A stretch of DNA of 64,000 bases. It comes from Pseudobdellovibrionaceae bacterium. GTDB lineage: Bacteria; Bdellovibrionota; Bdellovibrionia; Bdellovibrionales; Bdellovibrionaceae. Position 1 is the first letter of the stretch, and every line of letters starts with the position of its first letter. The stretch is taken from assembly GCA_013359135.1 (NCBI GenBank), contig JABWCN010000001.1:1-64000 (forward strand), read 5' to 3'. The notes beneath the pieces are model-generated. The model had not been told where the DNA came from, ran no database searches, and saw nothing but the letters and a program-made list of their open reading frames with translations. Both the position numbers and the translations under genes were made by a program. This document shows positions 5,638 through 17,506 of this stretch, piece after piece.

Positions 5638-6489
5638 TACCAGTTGCGAAATCTACTTAGCAAGATAATGCCAAGGCTAGCTAAAGAAGCCAACAGATTA
5701 AGAAATAAAGAGGCGCGAAGTCGATGAATGAAGATGAGATTGATTACGATGTCGCCAAAATCATTATCAAAAGCCTGTGCATCTAATGGATGGTCCATGG
5801 ATACCTACTCTAAGTGGGGTACTAGGCTTCGGAAGCAGCCTCGTGTAGAGAGTTTGTTTTCTAAATCACGCAATCCATTTCGATCACCAAAAAAAACCAA
5901 GCCGAAAAAAGAAAAAAAAGTAGTTCAACTTAGACGTGCCCAGCCCAGCTATGGAGTAGAACGAATCTCCCAAGACTTAAAGCAACTTTTTAACATTAAT
6001 GCTCCCCCTAGGATTTATCCTGAGAAATCTACTTTTTTTGTGATGAAATTTTTAAGTGAATTAAAAAGAATTTGTCCGTTTCCTATACAAGAAATCCAGA
6101 CTGACAACGATACAGCATTTACCGATAAATTTAGTTCTGGTGTAGGCGTTACGGGTGAGCACGCAATGGATTTATGGTGCACTAAGAATGAGATTAATCA
6201 CCGACTTATTCCTGTAGGAGTAAAAGAGCTCAATAGCAAGGTGGAAAACACGCACAAGAAGGATGATCTAGAAGGTCCCTATGAATCAGAAGCAAAAATT
6301 AGTTTAAATGTAACCGGCTACAATCAGCGCTGGAACCAAACGCGCAGAACAAAGGCTCTTAAATGGAAATCACCAAATGAGACTATTAACGATGCTTACA
6401 TCAAAGCCCTAGCTCTTGCAGAGATGCCAAAACAAATGCAGACAAAACCGATCAAAATCCAGACCCAAAAAAATAAAGTTAGGGGTTGA
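5638..6489 (+). pseudogene. Decayed rve-type (DDE) transposase with internal deletion
   Basis: Remnant of an integrase-core transposase of the IS481/IS3-like type. From the ATG at 5728 the frame has a helix-turn-helix-like part (TYSKWGTRLRK ... LFSKSRNPFR), the segment QPSYGVERISQDLKQLFNIN, then the second half of the rve core: IQTDNDTAFTDKF with Asp126, and VKELNSKVENTHKKD with Glu173. The part carrying the first catalytic Asp is absent. The sequence jumps from NINAPP directly to YPEKSTFF near residue 95, which looks like an in-frame deletion. The same frame is open further upstream but is cut by TGA at 5725-5727. The element is therefore non-functional. Its 3' end touches the IS630 remnant. 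Confidence 0.7.
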
Positions 6490-13091: not shown

Positions 13092-13249
13092 AAACTTATT
13101 ACAGGTTTTTTTATCTAACTTTAAACTCACATTTATTAATTTTTGAACTTTCACCTCTGCTAGTTCCAAAACAGAACCGTCTGGAGTATATCATCCAAAA
13201 TTTGAACTACAAACCTATAAGTCAAATAGATGAATATAGTGAAGGACTT

Positions 13250-14884
13250 ATGCCTGCCCTAAGTCAAAAATACTCAAAGAAGTGTTTGAGTTCTTTAGAA
13301 AGAGAAATAAGGGATTCAAATTTGCATCAACTTCATATGATGGAACTGTTGATGAAATGGCACCTATTACTTGTTATAATATTTCAATTTTTTTGGGTTG
13401 AAATAGGAAAATCCGATGAGGTAAACACCTCCCCAATTAACAGATTCTTTTTCTTTGAACAGGTCCGATATACAATAACCAACTATTTTTCATCCGGTGG
13501 AATAAATCACCTTTTTTTAGCCGCACCCTTGATACCCCAATCCTCCAAACCTAATTTGGTGGTAAAAATAATAAGTAAAGAACAAACTCCAATAATCAAA
13601 TCTCATTTGCTATTATATCAAAGAAGTCTCTACTTAACTCCGACACTAAGATTTGCGCCCCTACCAGTCACTCCAACCGAATTGCAAAAGTATGAATTAT
13701 GGTTTGCTTCACCTTTGGCTAAATTTGATTTAGTTGCTGCTTTTAGGGAAAAAGAAAAAAGCCACTGGACGATGAAAGAAAAAATCAATTTTTTAAATTT
13801 AGTGCTGAAAGATTTACTTCAAGAACTTACTATCATGGCAAAACTTAGGTTAGCTCATAATGAGATTAAACCAGGAAATATACTTGTTAGTGCTGACGGC
13901 CATTTTGGCTTAAGTGATTTTGATGCTGTCACCAGTTGGCTTCATAAAACAAGATTTTTCTCTTCAAATTATGTTGCTTTCGAATCTTTGAATCCCATTG
14001 GCTCTGACCCATTATCTGATATTTATAGCTTGGCTGTGACCCTGGCCCAGTTGATGTTTTCCGATAATCTTGATCATGTGATGATGACTCTGGACAACCC
14101 AAAACTGGTTAAGTTTTTCCAAGGACAGCAGAGAATTTCACTAGTTGATGTCCGACTCTCTTTTAAAGAAATTGAATCAAAATTACTCTCGCTTGAAGAT
14201 TCAGAACTCAAACAAAAATTTTCTTTACTTAAGAGATTTATTATTGCCGGCATTGAAGAGGATTATCATCAAAGAAGAGCACAGATTAGACTTTTAAAAA
14301 ACAAAGAACTTGAATTCATTTTATCTGAGATAGAAAAAGAAGAACTGAAACTAGGACCTTTAAATCCCTATTCAGATAAAGATATTTGGATCAAGAAAAA
14401 GAAAACTGACACGGAACTTGAAATTGATCGATTGATCGGAAAATTAGCCCAAGGTATTGACTTAAAAAAAGTAACTGAGCATTTACAGGAAAGAGAGCTT
14501 TCAGCAAAGCATCACATAAAACTTTTATTACTACAGAAAATCAATAACACTCGAACCAAGCAAGAGGTGAGACTGTGTGCCAGTGAGTTACTTCTGAAGG
14601 AAAAAATTGTCAACTTTCGGTCTATCTTAATATTTTCAGAGGGTCTAAAAGCAGCCTCATCCAGTGATGATCGAAAACTTCTTGAGAACAAAGTAGCACT
14701 GCTATTGCAATACTATCATCCAACTCCAAAAGAATGGTCCTATCTGAAAAATCAACTTAATGATTTTAAATTATTTGAAATTCTTCAAGGTCTTCTACAA
14801 ACACCGCAACACAGCAGCGCAAAAATAAAACAGGATTCCATTTTAAAAATAAAAAAATTATATTGTTATCGAAACTACCTGTGA
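13250..14884 (+). CDS. Kinase-fold protein with altered catalytic motifs and an N-terminal membrane segment
   Basis: About 544 residues from the ATG at 13250, preceded by GAAGGA five bases upstream; the frame is open further upstream without a ribosome-binding site. The N-terminal 33 residues are followed by a hydrophobic segment (WHLLLVIIFQFFWVEIG). A protein-kinase-like domain follows: a glycine-loop-like FSSGGINHLFLA, a VVK lysine near residue 106, HNEIKPGN near 203-210, SDFDAV near 222-227, and SDIYSLAVTLAQLMF near 256. In canonical kinases these read HRDLKPxN and DFG. Here the catalytic-base Asp is Glu and DFG is DFD. The C-terminal part is Lys/Glu-rich, helical and unrecognised. The ORF overlaps the convergent gene at 14875 by 10 bases. 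It could be a pseudokinase or a weak kinase. Topology is unproven. Confidence 0.65.
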   Translation: MPALSQKYSKKCLSSLEREIRDSNLHQLHMMELLMKWHLLLVIIFQFFWVEIGKSDEVNTSPINRFFFFEQVRYTITNYFSSGGINHLFLAAPLIPQSSKPNLVVKIISKEQTPIIKSHLLLYQRSLYLTPTLRFAPLPVTPTELQKYELWFASPLAKFDLVAAFREKEKSHWTMKEKINFLNLVLKDLLQELTIMAKLRLAHNEIKPGNILVSADGHFGLSDFDAVTSWLHKTRFFSSNYVAFESLNPIGSDPLSDIYSLAVTLAQLMFSDNLDHVMMTLDNPKLVKFFQGQQRISLVDVRLSFKEIESKLLSLEDSELKQKFSLLKRFIIAGIEEDYHQRRAQIRLLKNKELEFILSEIEKEELKLGPLNPYSDKDIWIKKKKTDTELEIDRLIGKLAQGIDLKKVTEHLQERELSAKHHIKLLLLQKINNTRTKQEVRLCASELLLKEKIVNFRSILIFSEGLKAASSSDDRKLLENKVALLLQYYHPTPKEWSYLKNQLNDFKLFEILQGLLQTPQHSSAKIKQDSILKIKKLYCYRNYL

Positions 14885-15588
14885 GCAGGCTTTAAAACTT
14901 CTTTAACAAAACGAAAAGCTAACTGACTGTATCCATTTGCCTCAATAACAGGAGATAAACTACCTTCAGTGAACCATGCTGTAAACTCGGGGACGTTCTG
15001 AATTTTCTTTAGAACCATTTCTTCTTCCCACCAAGGAACCTCTGCACTTAATATATCTCCAGTTAGTAAACTGACTTTAATTTTTCCATCAGAATTAATC
15101 AAATCAATATGCTTTTGTTCACAAGCCGTTTTACAAATAAAGATCAACTCACCCAATGTAATCCCATAATCTATCGGATAGGGCATTGAATTCATCTTTC
15201 TTAACGATACACTGTCTCTTGAATTCCAATTTTTAAATTCTAGAGGAACTGAAATTAAAAAATTCTTCTCAGCATTCCAACCTTGAATTTTTATCACTTG
15301 CAAAGAATTAAAATCATTTACCCAAATAAAAACATCAAATACGGTAACACCTTCAATTTTAACAACCTCCGATACAATACTTGCTATTTTTCCTTGAAGT
15401 TCGTCTTTATTCACCTCCCAGTTCACGGCAGATGAAGAAAAACTATAGGTAGTCTCTTTTTCACAAAAATTGTAATCCATTAAAGAGGTACAACCAACGT
15501 GCTGCTGTGCCTGAAGTGAAAAACTGCCAAACAATAAAAGCAGAACCGTAACTAAAGCAGACTTAGATTTCTTCCTATTTGTTCTCAA
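14875..15588 (-). CDS. Secreted protein of unknown function following nrfA
   Basis: 237-residue protein not recognised. It has a clear signal peptide (KKSKSALVTVLLLLFGSFSLQAQ, cleavage after QAQ). The mature part has four Cys (two near the start, CTSLMDYNFC, and two in CKTAC), suggesting disulfides or metal binding. It has no CxxCH haem motif. The start is TTG at 15588, with AAGGA seven bases upstream, overlapping the 3' end of nrfA by 14 bases. It is therefore almost certainly co-translated with nrfHA and probably serves nitrite reduction or its assembly (inference from position only). Confidence 0.6.
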   Translation of the reverse strand: MRTNRKKSKSALVTVLLLLFGSFSLQAQQHVGCTSLMDYNFCEKETTYSFSSSAVNWEVNKDELQGKIASIVSEVVKIEGVTVFDVFIWVNDFNSLQVIKIQGWNAEKNFLISVPLEFKNWNSRDSVSLRKMNSMPYPIDYGITLGELIFICKTACEQKHIDLINSDGKIKVSLLTGDILSAEVPWWEEEMVLKKIQNVPEFTAWFTEGSLSPVIEANGYSQLAFRFVKEVLKPAHR

Positions 15589-16978
15589 CTGGTTTTCCTT
15601 TTTTATTTTCGTCTTTGACTTCTTGAAGCTTCTTTTGTCCTTTTCTCACGTTATCGATTGATAAACCCAAAATTCTGGCGGCCTCTTGTGGAGCATGGAA
15701 TCCAGAAGAGTTTTCTGCCTCGACAAAGTCGAATAAAAACTGAGCTTGTCTTTGGAAATCTCTAGCTTCAATTAATTTCTTATTTCCTGTTTTCTCAGTA
15801 TCCTCATCCTTATACTCTTTAAGATTATTTATATAATCCACCAAAGCGTCAAAGGCGACATTTCTTAACTGCATATGTCGATCTTGAATCGTTTCTACTC
15901 GATCTTTTAAGTCCTTTTCCGGAACATTATGACAGGTTTGACAGGCTCGGTTGATATTCAATAATGGACTCCTTACATGATGATCAGTGACCTTCATGGC
16001 ACCAACCCGTTGAAATGGCATATGGCAATCTACACAAGAAACACCAGCCTTAGCATGAGTTCCCTGATTGAACATTTCAAACTCTGGGTGTTGTGCTTTC
16101 AATACAGGAGCCGAAGTTTCTTTATGTACCCAATCTTTATGTTTATTTTCTTGATAATAGGATAAGATTTGATCAGCTTTCAAACCATTATGCCATGGAA
16201 AAGTTAACTGCTTATCTGGACCTTTAAAATAGTATTCCACATGACATTGGCCACAGACAAAACTTCTCATTTCCTGACGAGTGGCCATTTTATTTATGTC
16301 ATACTCTTTTATTCCCTGCCTTAGTTTGAAAGCTTTCATTCCCTCTATAAATGCAGGGCGAGTAATTCTTAAAGCCATTGTTTGCGAATCGTGACAATCG
16401 ATGCACGAAACAGGATGCTTCACTTTTTGCACTACCTCTTTATATGGAATTTTATTCATTTCATAAAAACCTTTATGGATATCGCCAGCTCCTAAGTTTT
16501 TCATTAGATTATAAGTTGAGGCATGACAATTCAAACAAGCACCTGGTTGTTTGACAACATTCTGTCTTTCCGTAAGAATTTGATCGGCCAGCATGTATGC
16601 ATGCCCACGCTCTTCTCTAAAATCGGCCGAAAACGCATATCCCATCCACATAGTTTTAAGTCTCGGATCTTCATCTAATTTTTGTTGAGACACTACCCCA
16701 CGAGGGTCCTTTTCTGTAGGAATGTGAGGTACAGCCTCTGAACCTCCATATTTAGTTCTAACCATATCAGCTGTTTTTAAATAAGAATCATATTGATGAG
16801 GAAAATTTTTTCCCCAAATGGCTGGATCTTCGGTATCATCAGTAATCTCTACAACTCGATAAAATGGATTTTTTCCCTCTTGCTTACGTTCAAAAATATT
16901 CACAACAACAGCAGCTATCACCAAAGTTCCCAAGAAAATTCCTGCCGCCAGAAGCAATTTATTATTTATCCCCTTCAT
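15575..16978 (-). CDS. nrfA: Ammonia-forming cytochrome c nitrite reductase, catalytic subunit
   Basis: 467-residue pentahaem periplasmic enzyme reducing nitrite to ammonium with six electrons from NrfH. Five haem-binding motifs are visible: CLNCH 148-152, CIDCH 192-196, CGQCH 242-246, CVDCH 315-319 and CQTCH 346-350. The first, which holds the active-site haem, is CxxCH rather than the CxxCK of E. coli NrfA; this variant is known from some other proteobacterial NrfA. The family motifs QCHVEYYF (Ca-site Tyr) and TFPWHNG are present, as is HPEF...GTHAKAGVSC. The N-terminus is an uncleaved-looking signal or anchor (LLLAAGIFLGTLVIAAVVV). It lies 9 bases downstream of nrfH and overlaps the secreted-protein gene after it. 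Likely role: nitrite respiration or detoxification. Confidence 0.92.
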   Translation of the reverse strand: MKGINNKLLLAAGIFLGTLVIAAVVVNIFERKQEGKNPFYRVVEITDDTEDPAIWGKNFPHQYDSYLKTADMVRTKYGGSEAVPHIPTEKDPRGVVSQQKLDEDPRLKTMWMGYAFSADFREERGHAYMLADQILTERQNVVKQPGACLNCHASTYNLMKNLGAGDIHKGFYEMNKIPYKEVVQKVKHPVSCIDCHDSQTMALRITRPAFIEGMKAFKLRQGIKEYDINKMATRQEMRSFVCGQCHVEYYFKGPDKQLTFPWHNGLKADQILSYYQENKHKDWVHKETSAPVLKAQHPEFEMFNQGTHAKAGVSCVDCHMPFQRVGAMKVTDHHVRSPLLNINRACQTCHNVPEKDLKDRVETIQDRHMQLRNVAFDALVDYINNLKEYKDEDTEKTGNKKLIEARDFQRQAQFLFDFVEAENSSGFHAPQEAARILGLSIDNVRKGQKKLQEVKDENKKGKPVENK

Positions 16979-16987
16979 TAACTCCCC

Positions 16988-17506
16988 CTATTTACCGTGT
17001 CCCACTTGTTGATGACAATTAAGACAATTCAAATCATTTTTTTGAAATTGATTTTTATGGACGCTGATATTGGCCGTCATCGGCTCATGACAAGAAATAC
17101 AAGAATTCAAAACTACGCTGCGACTGTGTTCTTTAATTTGGATTGGATCCTTGAAGTTTTGTAAAGTAAATGCTGCCGAATGATTAAACCCATTCACAGC
17201 CTTGATAGCATATTTACCAACAACATTATGAGGCAGATGACAGTCATTACACTTAGCTACATGGTGATGGGTAGATTTTTGCCAAGAATCCATCTGATCC
17301 TGCATCACGTGACAATTCACACAAGCATTAGGATCATCTGACATATAGGAATAACCTTTGGCATAAAAAAATCCATAACTGGCTAGTCCCAAAAAAGCAG
17401 AAATTAAAATTAATAAAATATCGCTACTTTGTAATTTCATCCACTTTATAGTGACAAATGAAATTAACTTTTCAACAAAATTCCAACGAAGTCCAGAATT
17501 CTTCAT
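16988..17506 (-). CDS. nrfH: Cytochrome c nitrite reductase small subunit (quinol dehydrogenase)
   Basis: 172-residue NapC/NirT-family tetrahaem cytochrome. A single transmembrane helix (ILLILISAFLGLASYGFFYAKG, about 30-51) anchors it, and four motifs bind haem: CVNCH 62-66, CNDCH 86-90, CISCH 136-140 and CLNCH 161-165. The phrase SDDPNACVNCHVMQ is typical of NrfH. It takes electrons from menaquinol and passes them to NrfA. It is first in the unit nrfH-nrfA-secreted protein. The 35-base gap to the divergent gene at 17542 leaves little room for two separate promoters. The first 24 residues are unusually long for NrfH; Met23 is an alternative start. Confidence 0.9.
   Translation of the reverse strand: MKNSGLRWNFVEKLISFVTIKWMKLQSSDILLILISAFLGLASYGFFYAKGYSYMSDDPNACVNCHVMQDQMDSWQKSTHHHVAKCNDCHLPHNVVGKYAIKAVNGFNHSAAFTLQNFKDPIQIKEHSRSVVLNSCISCHEPMTANISVHKNQFQKNDLNCLNCHQQVGHGK

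Follow-up and report, generated by a model that had tools for sequence, protein, structure and literature searches.

Does a bacterial protein with the fold of a protein kinase act outside the cytoplasm, and does it still transfer phosphate? The question is raised by a gene in the 64,000-nucleotide stretch of Pseudobdellovibrionaceae DNA analyzed here (the window). Kinase signalling in bacteria is commonly taken to be cytoplasmic. A preliminary description of this gene had proposed a kinase-fold protein carrying HNE and DFD in place of HRD and DFG, possibly facing the periplasm, as either a pseudokinase or a new kinase-like enzyme. We favour an ATP-binding pseudokinase over a kinase-like enzyme.

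The kinase-fold gene and its motifs

The longest reading frame in the open reading frame list, 13202-14884 (+), encodes 560 amino acids from a TTG and is open throughout. We infer a start at the ATG at 13352, with alternatives further upstream at 13202, 13250 and 13337, because textbook signal-peptide order is found there, in the position, with respect to the kinase domain, that it has in two sister proteins described below. The features of the gene are as follows.

13352-14884, plus strand: gene of the probably exported kinase-fold protein, 510 codons and a stop (open reading frame list and alignment with the sisters)
13352-13414, plus strand: predicted signal peptide MKWHLLLVIIFQFFWVEIGKS, or uncleaved signal anchor (sequence reading; predicted cleavage before D22)
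13418-14350, plus strand: predicted protein-kinase-fold domain, both lobes (AlphaFold, Foldseek, and Pfam PF00069 on the C-lobe)
13490-13516, plus strand: degenerate glycine loop SSGGINHLF (alignment; SGGFGHVY in the sisters)
13565-13567, plus strand: VAIK-type Lys, kept, in VVK (near-invariant column in an alignment of 39 kinases)
13856-13864, plus strand: HNE replacing HxD, catalytic-base Asp changed to Glu (Asp in 10 of 12 family members)
13877-13879, plus strand: metal-binding Asn of HxDxKxxN, kept (invariant alignment column)
13916-13924, plus strand: DFD replacing DFG, metal-binding Asp kept and Gly changed to Asp (motif comparison)
13973-13984, plus strand: VAFE replacing xAPE, Pro lost (near-invariant in the alignment)
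14015-14035, plus strand: SDIYSLA, helix F Asp kept and the next Gly changed to Ala (alignment; SDIYS at 14015-14029)
14351-14863, plus strand: C-terminal tail, predicted to be all-helical (low-confidence model, pLDDT 55)
14864-14881, plus strand: C-terminal cysteine tag CYRNYL, of the form C-x-x-Phi/N-[F/Y] (Cys sixth residue from the end)

Codon bias was positive in-frame across all parts of the gene, at 0.09-0.13 compared with 0.22-0.34 in its neighbours. Both flanking genes sit on the opposite strand, which leaves no operon to interpret; no partner gene was evident beside it, and its surroundings lack synteny with the loci of the sisters. The gene was absent from the three searched genomes of the same genus (G001-G003), a search for a phage origin of the protein gave no match, and no curated NCBIfam name scored above its cut-off. 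Elsewhere in the window, the translation of 5728-6489 (+) resembles an IS3-type transposase fragment, and 15575-17506 (-) presumably encodes adjacent multi-haem proteins resembling NrfA/NrfH nitrite reductase.

An AlphaFold model built from 39 kinase domains covered both lobes with pLDDT 82 and pTM 0.84; a first run with four sequences reached pLDDT 55, and the fold claims do not rest on it. All 50 listed Foldseek matches in the PDB were protein kinases, including FGFR2 (4j95, E 1e-11, probability 1.00) and PknB (5u94, E 1.8e-10), and the first of these scores excludes a chance resemblance to kinases. Pfam Pkinase (PF00069) matched only the C-lobe, at residues 198-289, with 39.5 bits (cut-off 31.7). 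The modelled fold is that of a protein kinase, and the unrelated fold named in the preliminary description as counter-evidence was not obtained. The tail that follows the domain is about 430 amino acids long in the sisters.

The motifs on which the preliminary description was based (HNE, DFD, the Lys of VVK, and SDIYS) are all present. Its list of preserved kinase landmarks holds for VVK and SDIYS, but not for the glycine-rich loop: SSGGINHLF has just two adjacent Gly and departs from GxGxxG. Two losses were missing from it, namely APE to AFE and SDIYSLG to SDIYSLA. In the 39-row alignment, the window protein departs at 3 of 13 invariant or near-invariant positions (D152E, P191F and G209A), and Lys53, Asn157 and Asp170 are retained (numbering of the modelled domain). 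Compared with an active eukaryote-like kinase, the protein thus lacks the HxD base, the DFG Gly and the glycine loop, and has the VAIK Lys, the catalytic-loop Asn and the DFx Asp. Retention of binding residues together with loss of catalytic and structural landmarks is the pattern of an ATP-binding pseudokinase, short of proof, and the window protein is probably no longer active as a kinase itself. No milder change of the base exists than Asp to Glu, and some residual activity could persist with Glu as a weak base. No orthologue with HNE was found among the homologues searched, and the Glu therefore rests on one assembly.

A probably exported kinase clade in Bdellovibrionota

A peptide-pattern search of 84,980 species with the window protein alone returned no close relatives. 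An alignment query then recovered two sisters, from Bdellovibrionaceae UBA2316 and UBA2351 (Pseudobdellovibrionaceae under NCBI taxonomy). A clade of 12 kinases, window copy included, patchily distributed in Bdellovibrionota, emerged from sequence searches within the order, from profiles run against about 360 genomes of the phylum, and from one Silvanigrellales locus (L050). In the second profile search, 11 members (window copy counted) scored E 1e-28 to 1e-108, and the next matches were ordinary Ser/Thr kinases at E 6e-25 and weaker; nine of these 11 were in the query alignment, leaving two G287 proteins as the independent finds. The 12 members formed one group in a tree of 80 kinases (SH-aLRT 95), a quick tree made without bootstrap and with long branches, in which relations within the group are unsure. 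The branch of the window copy measured 1.84, compared with 0.05-0.09 for the tips of the two sisters, whose shared stem was 1.33; the longest branch, 2.8, belongs to G038, which has HGG and no catalytic Asp.

The preliminary description had treated HNE and DFD as a joint feature, to be sought across homologues, and here the two came apart. At the third place of DFx, 10 of the 12 members carry Asp (G102a and G102b have DYG), as does only 1 of the 121 other kinases that these searches gave once family members and G200 were removed; a p-value of 1.5e-10, computed before that removal, is too small a figure given the relatedness within the clade. The catalytic Asp of HxD is likewise present in 10 of 12 members, missing only in the window copy (Glu) and G038 (Gly). 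DFD is therefore an inherited family trait and HNE is private to the window copy, so that the conservation looked for was found for DFD and not for the Glu. Read from these alignments, the clade is not uniformly made up of pseudokinases, the window copy and G038 apparently having lost the Asp independently.

The hydrophobic segment that had been noticed ahead of the domain is real, and is best read as a signal peptide starting at the ATG at 13352, downstream of the position 13250 at which the earlier description began: MKWH is followed by 12 hydrophobic residues and EIGKS, then by DE after the predicted cleavage. All 12 clade members have a signal-peptide-like hydrophobic N-terminus immediately ahead of the kinase domain, as judged by eye and by hydropathy criteria; in G285 the start is unsure, with no ordinary start codon ahead of the segment. 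This supports the extracytoplasmic location suggested earlier. Export looks like a trait of the whole clade and is the probable fate of the window protein as well.

Outside the clade lie the other kinase-like matches in the window's own genome (ABC1, APH-like and one ordinary Ser/Thr kinase), which were set aside. A further exported kinase outside it, G200 (L274; G200:C88), has HLD and DLD, with KCEGDF straight after the signal peptide, and may represent an independent origin of an exported kinase.

A terminal cysteine tag

The preliminary description made no mention of the C-terminal cysteine tag. It is found in 11 of 12 clade members (L050 is without it), with the Cys 4-15 residues from the C-terminus in a C-x-x-Phi-[F/Y/L] setting; the window copy, CYRNYL, has Asn as the fourth residue, and the other forms are CQSFYH, CHSFYR, CPDLFPL, CRDLFGR, CKFIFSGY, CVLLF and four looser ones. 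The tag Cys is mostly the sole cysteine of the mature protein in the clade, the window protein having a second. Of 113 ordinary kinases whose C-terminus was readable, not one ends in the tag.

The tag also marks, at either terminus, exported ABC1-kinase-like, Fic and MoxR AAA+ proteins across Bdellovibrionales. Signal-peptide-bearing ABC1/UbiB-like proteins of about 700 amino acids from some 30 Bdellovibrionales genomes (L221-L250) end in it (CEMVFN, CQAVFQ, CRNLFL, CAKFYAK and similar), the Cys being present in every copy with a readable C-terminus and nearly always the sole cysteine of the mature protein. In exported Fic-domain homologues (L297:1253-3562 (-), L355-L366), the tag follows directly after the signal peptide in 12/12 copies, as CEYVF, CDYVF, CIAIF or a near variant. 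Exported bpMoxR AAA+ proteins (L196, L332-L345) carry N-terminal CEDLF, CSEIF or CEALF in most copies; the conserved tag of the copy in the window's own genome (G000) is N-terminal CEDFY.

Several observations were made alongside. The ABC1-like copies of G000 lie at L179:8765-11137 (+) and L319:13702-15726 (+), and examples from these and L221-L250 include CEMVFN, CLGHYSI and CVSFYGR. One exported Fic homologue retains HPFVDGNG and the remaining copies are degenerate. The exported bpMoxR ATPases are mostly 900-1400 amino acids long, and the G000 copy, L196:2937-5180 (+) (G000:C12), is apparently shortened by a frameshift; its CIKIF end was rejected as a tag, since longer homologues show that the frame is cut off there. 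UBA2316 encodes a neighbouring pair of exported proteins with their lone mature Cys in C-terminal tags (CRQFY / CSKFY): a 2081-residue protein with an ABC1 domain (L161:5061-11306 (+)) and one of about 720 residues with no Pfam family (L161:2876-5050 (+)). Further tagged exported proteins of G000 are L200:12256-13368 (+), weakly trypsin-like; L319:12545-13522 (-), with no assignment; and L321:16251-17504 (+), weakly peptidase C1-like.

We counted the motif in one-cysteine proteins of sampled stretches from the window's own genome, UBA2316 and G010. It occurred near a terminus in 16/58 exported proteins and inside in 2/58, compared with 4/131 and 4/131 in non-exported ones; these counts come from heuristic gene calls and signal peptides, include homologous, non-independent proteins, and use a motif defined partly on proteins later counted. 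The same pipeline gave 0/7 in other phyla, a sample too small to exclude the tag there. The likely role of the tag, in our view, is to attach the mature protein outside the cytoplasm, or to sort it there, by way of the cysteine.

Exported kinase-fold proteins are already known as a kind. A literature search returned neither exported Bdellovibrio kinases nor a description of such a cysteine tag; subscription journals were mostly outside its scope, so this negative is weak evidence of novelty. The tag may be a weightier discovery than the pseudokinase itself.

Possible functions and known systems

We lean towards an exported ATP- or metal-binding pseudokinase that regulates a partner and is tagged via its C-terminal cysteine. 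Such a protein would leave via Sec and fold outside the cytoplasm. The family would bind ATP through the VAIK Lys, the catalytic-loop Asn and a DFD with both acids holding metals, as argued from RNase L and WNG1. With Glu as the base, and without an intact glycine loop, the APE Pro or the helix-F Gly, the window copy would most likely transfer no phosphate; as an ATP- or metal-responsive pseudokinase it might bind and regulate a partner through its kinase domain and helical tail, comparable with Fam20A and Fam20C, while the tag cysteine would hold or sort it outside the cytoplasm. By analogy, a DFD that tightens metal-ATP binding could be a sensible adaptation to an ATP-poor compartment.

The tagged proteins (kinase folds, ABC1, Fic and AAA+) typically need ATP, suggesting a destination with some ATP, such as prey. 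More tentatively, an undescribed Bdellovibrionales tag, C-x-x-Phi-[F/Y] with a single Cys close behind the signal peptide or close to the C-terminal end, might sort or covalently attach exported proteins of folds that ordinarily use ATP in a cytoplasm. These would be effectors bound for a second, ATP-containing compartment such as a prey cell, with the window pseudokinase among them. Bdellovibrio secretion has been called largely unexplored (PMC12622784). The shared tag, if real, would give a simple means of predicting which proteins of predatory bacteria are specially sorted, possibly into prey, and an exported kinase clade with a motif that in other systems goes with tight binding of metal and ATP would allow phosphosignalling or ATP sensing beyond the cytoplasm to be put to the test.

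An exported kinase that is still active, with Glu as the catalytic base and DFD compensating for low ATP, seems unlikely to us. The window protein keeps the Lys, Asn and DFD Asp, most relatives keep HxD, and the secreted kinase WNG1 cannot do without its acidic third residue if it is to be active (PMC6442604); against this, the base, glycine loop, APE Pro and helix-F Gly were lost together on a long branch. Transfer of a non-phosphate group (AMPylation or glutamylation, as in SelO or SidJ) is likewise improbable: such chemistry is known on kinase folds, according to references within PMC7948968, and an exported Fic-type protein bears the same tag, but the Pfam matches of the window protein included neither SelO nor SidJ, and the ordinary HxD of the sisters speaks for a phosphotransfer ancestry.

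The long branch, the weaker codon bias and the absence from the same-genus genomes would all suit a decaying gene or a sequencing error without function. We nevertheless hold this to be quite improbable, given an intact 510-codon frame, a confidently predicted fold, and the retention of metal-binding residues, signal peptide and tag alike. It is harder still to credit that the hydrophobic segment anchors the protein in reverse, leaving the kinase domain in the cytoplasm; the cleavage site is non-canonical (GKS) and longer N-termini are possible, but the charges flanking the segment are ordered as in an N-in signal peptide, and the sisters have clean cleavable ones (e.g. ...SATSVYA, cleaved before VKT).

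The tagged pseudokinase that we favour can be set beside several known systems. With PF00069 Ser/Thr kinases such as PknB, the window protein shares the two-lobed fold, the VAIK Lys, the catalytic-loop Asn, the DFx Asp and the SDIYS helix F; unlike them, it has a signal-peptide-like N-terminus, HNE, DFD and the cysteine tag, and lacks an intact Gly loop or APE. Bacterial PASTA kinases keep their kinase domain in the cytoplasm. Among the Pfam matches of the window protein (E up to 10), there was no Fam20 or CotH profile. Fam20A, reported only in vertebrates, is a secreted kinase-fold pseudokinase that binds ATP, is catalytically dead and activates Fam20C (PMC7948968); the likeness would be one of working mode. 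The pseudokinase of RNase L has DFD, with both acids coordinating Mg, and binds ATP at about 1 uM, and the Toxoplasma kinase WNG1 has no Gly loop, keeps the HRD Asp and carries an acidic residue for the DFG Gly whose loss abolishes activity (PMC6442604). Both share the acidic residue at that place with the exported clade; they are eukaryotic, whereas the clade is bacterial and tagged. PF03109 (ABC1/UbiB) is absent from the Pfam matches of the window protein. The exported ABC1/UbiB-like proteins of Bdellovibrionales differ in belonging to that family, in their HSDLHQGN motif and in being far more widespread, and share with the window protein a kinase-related domain, a signal peptide and the lone C-terminal cysteine tag.
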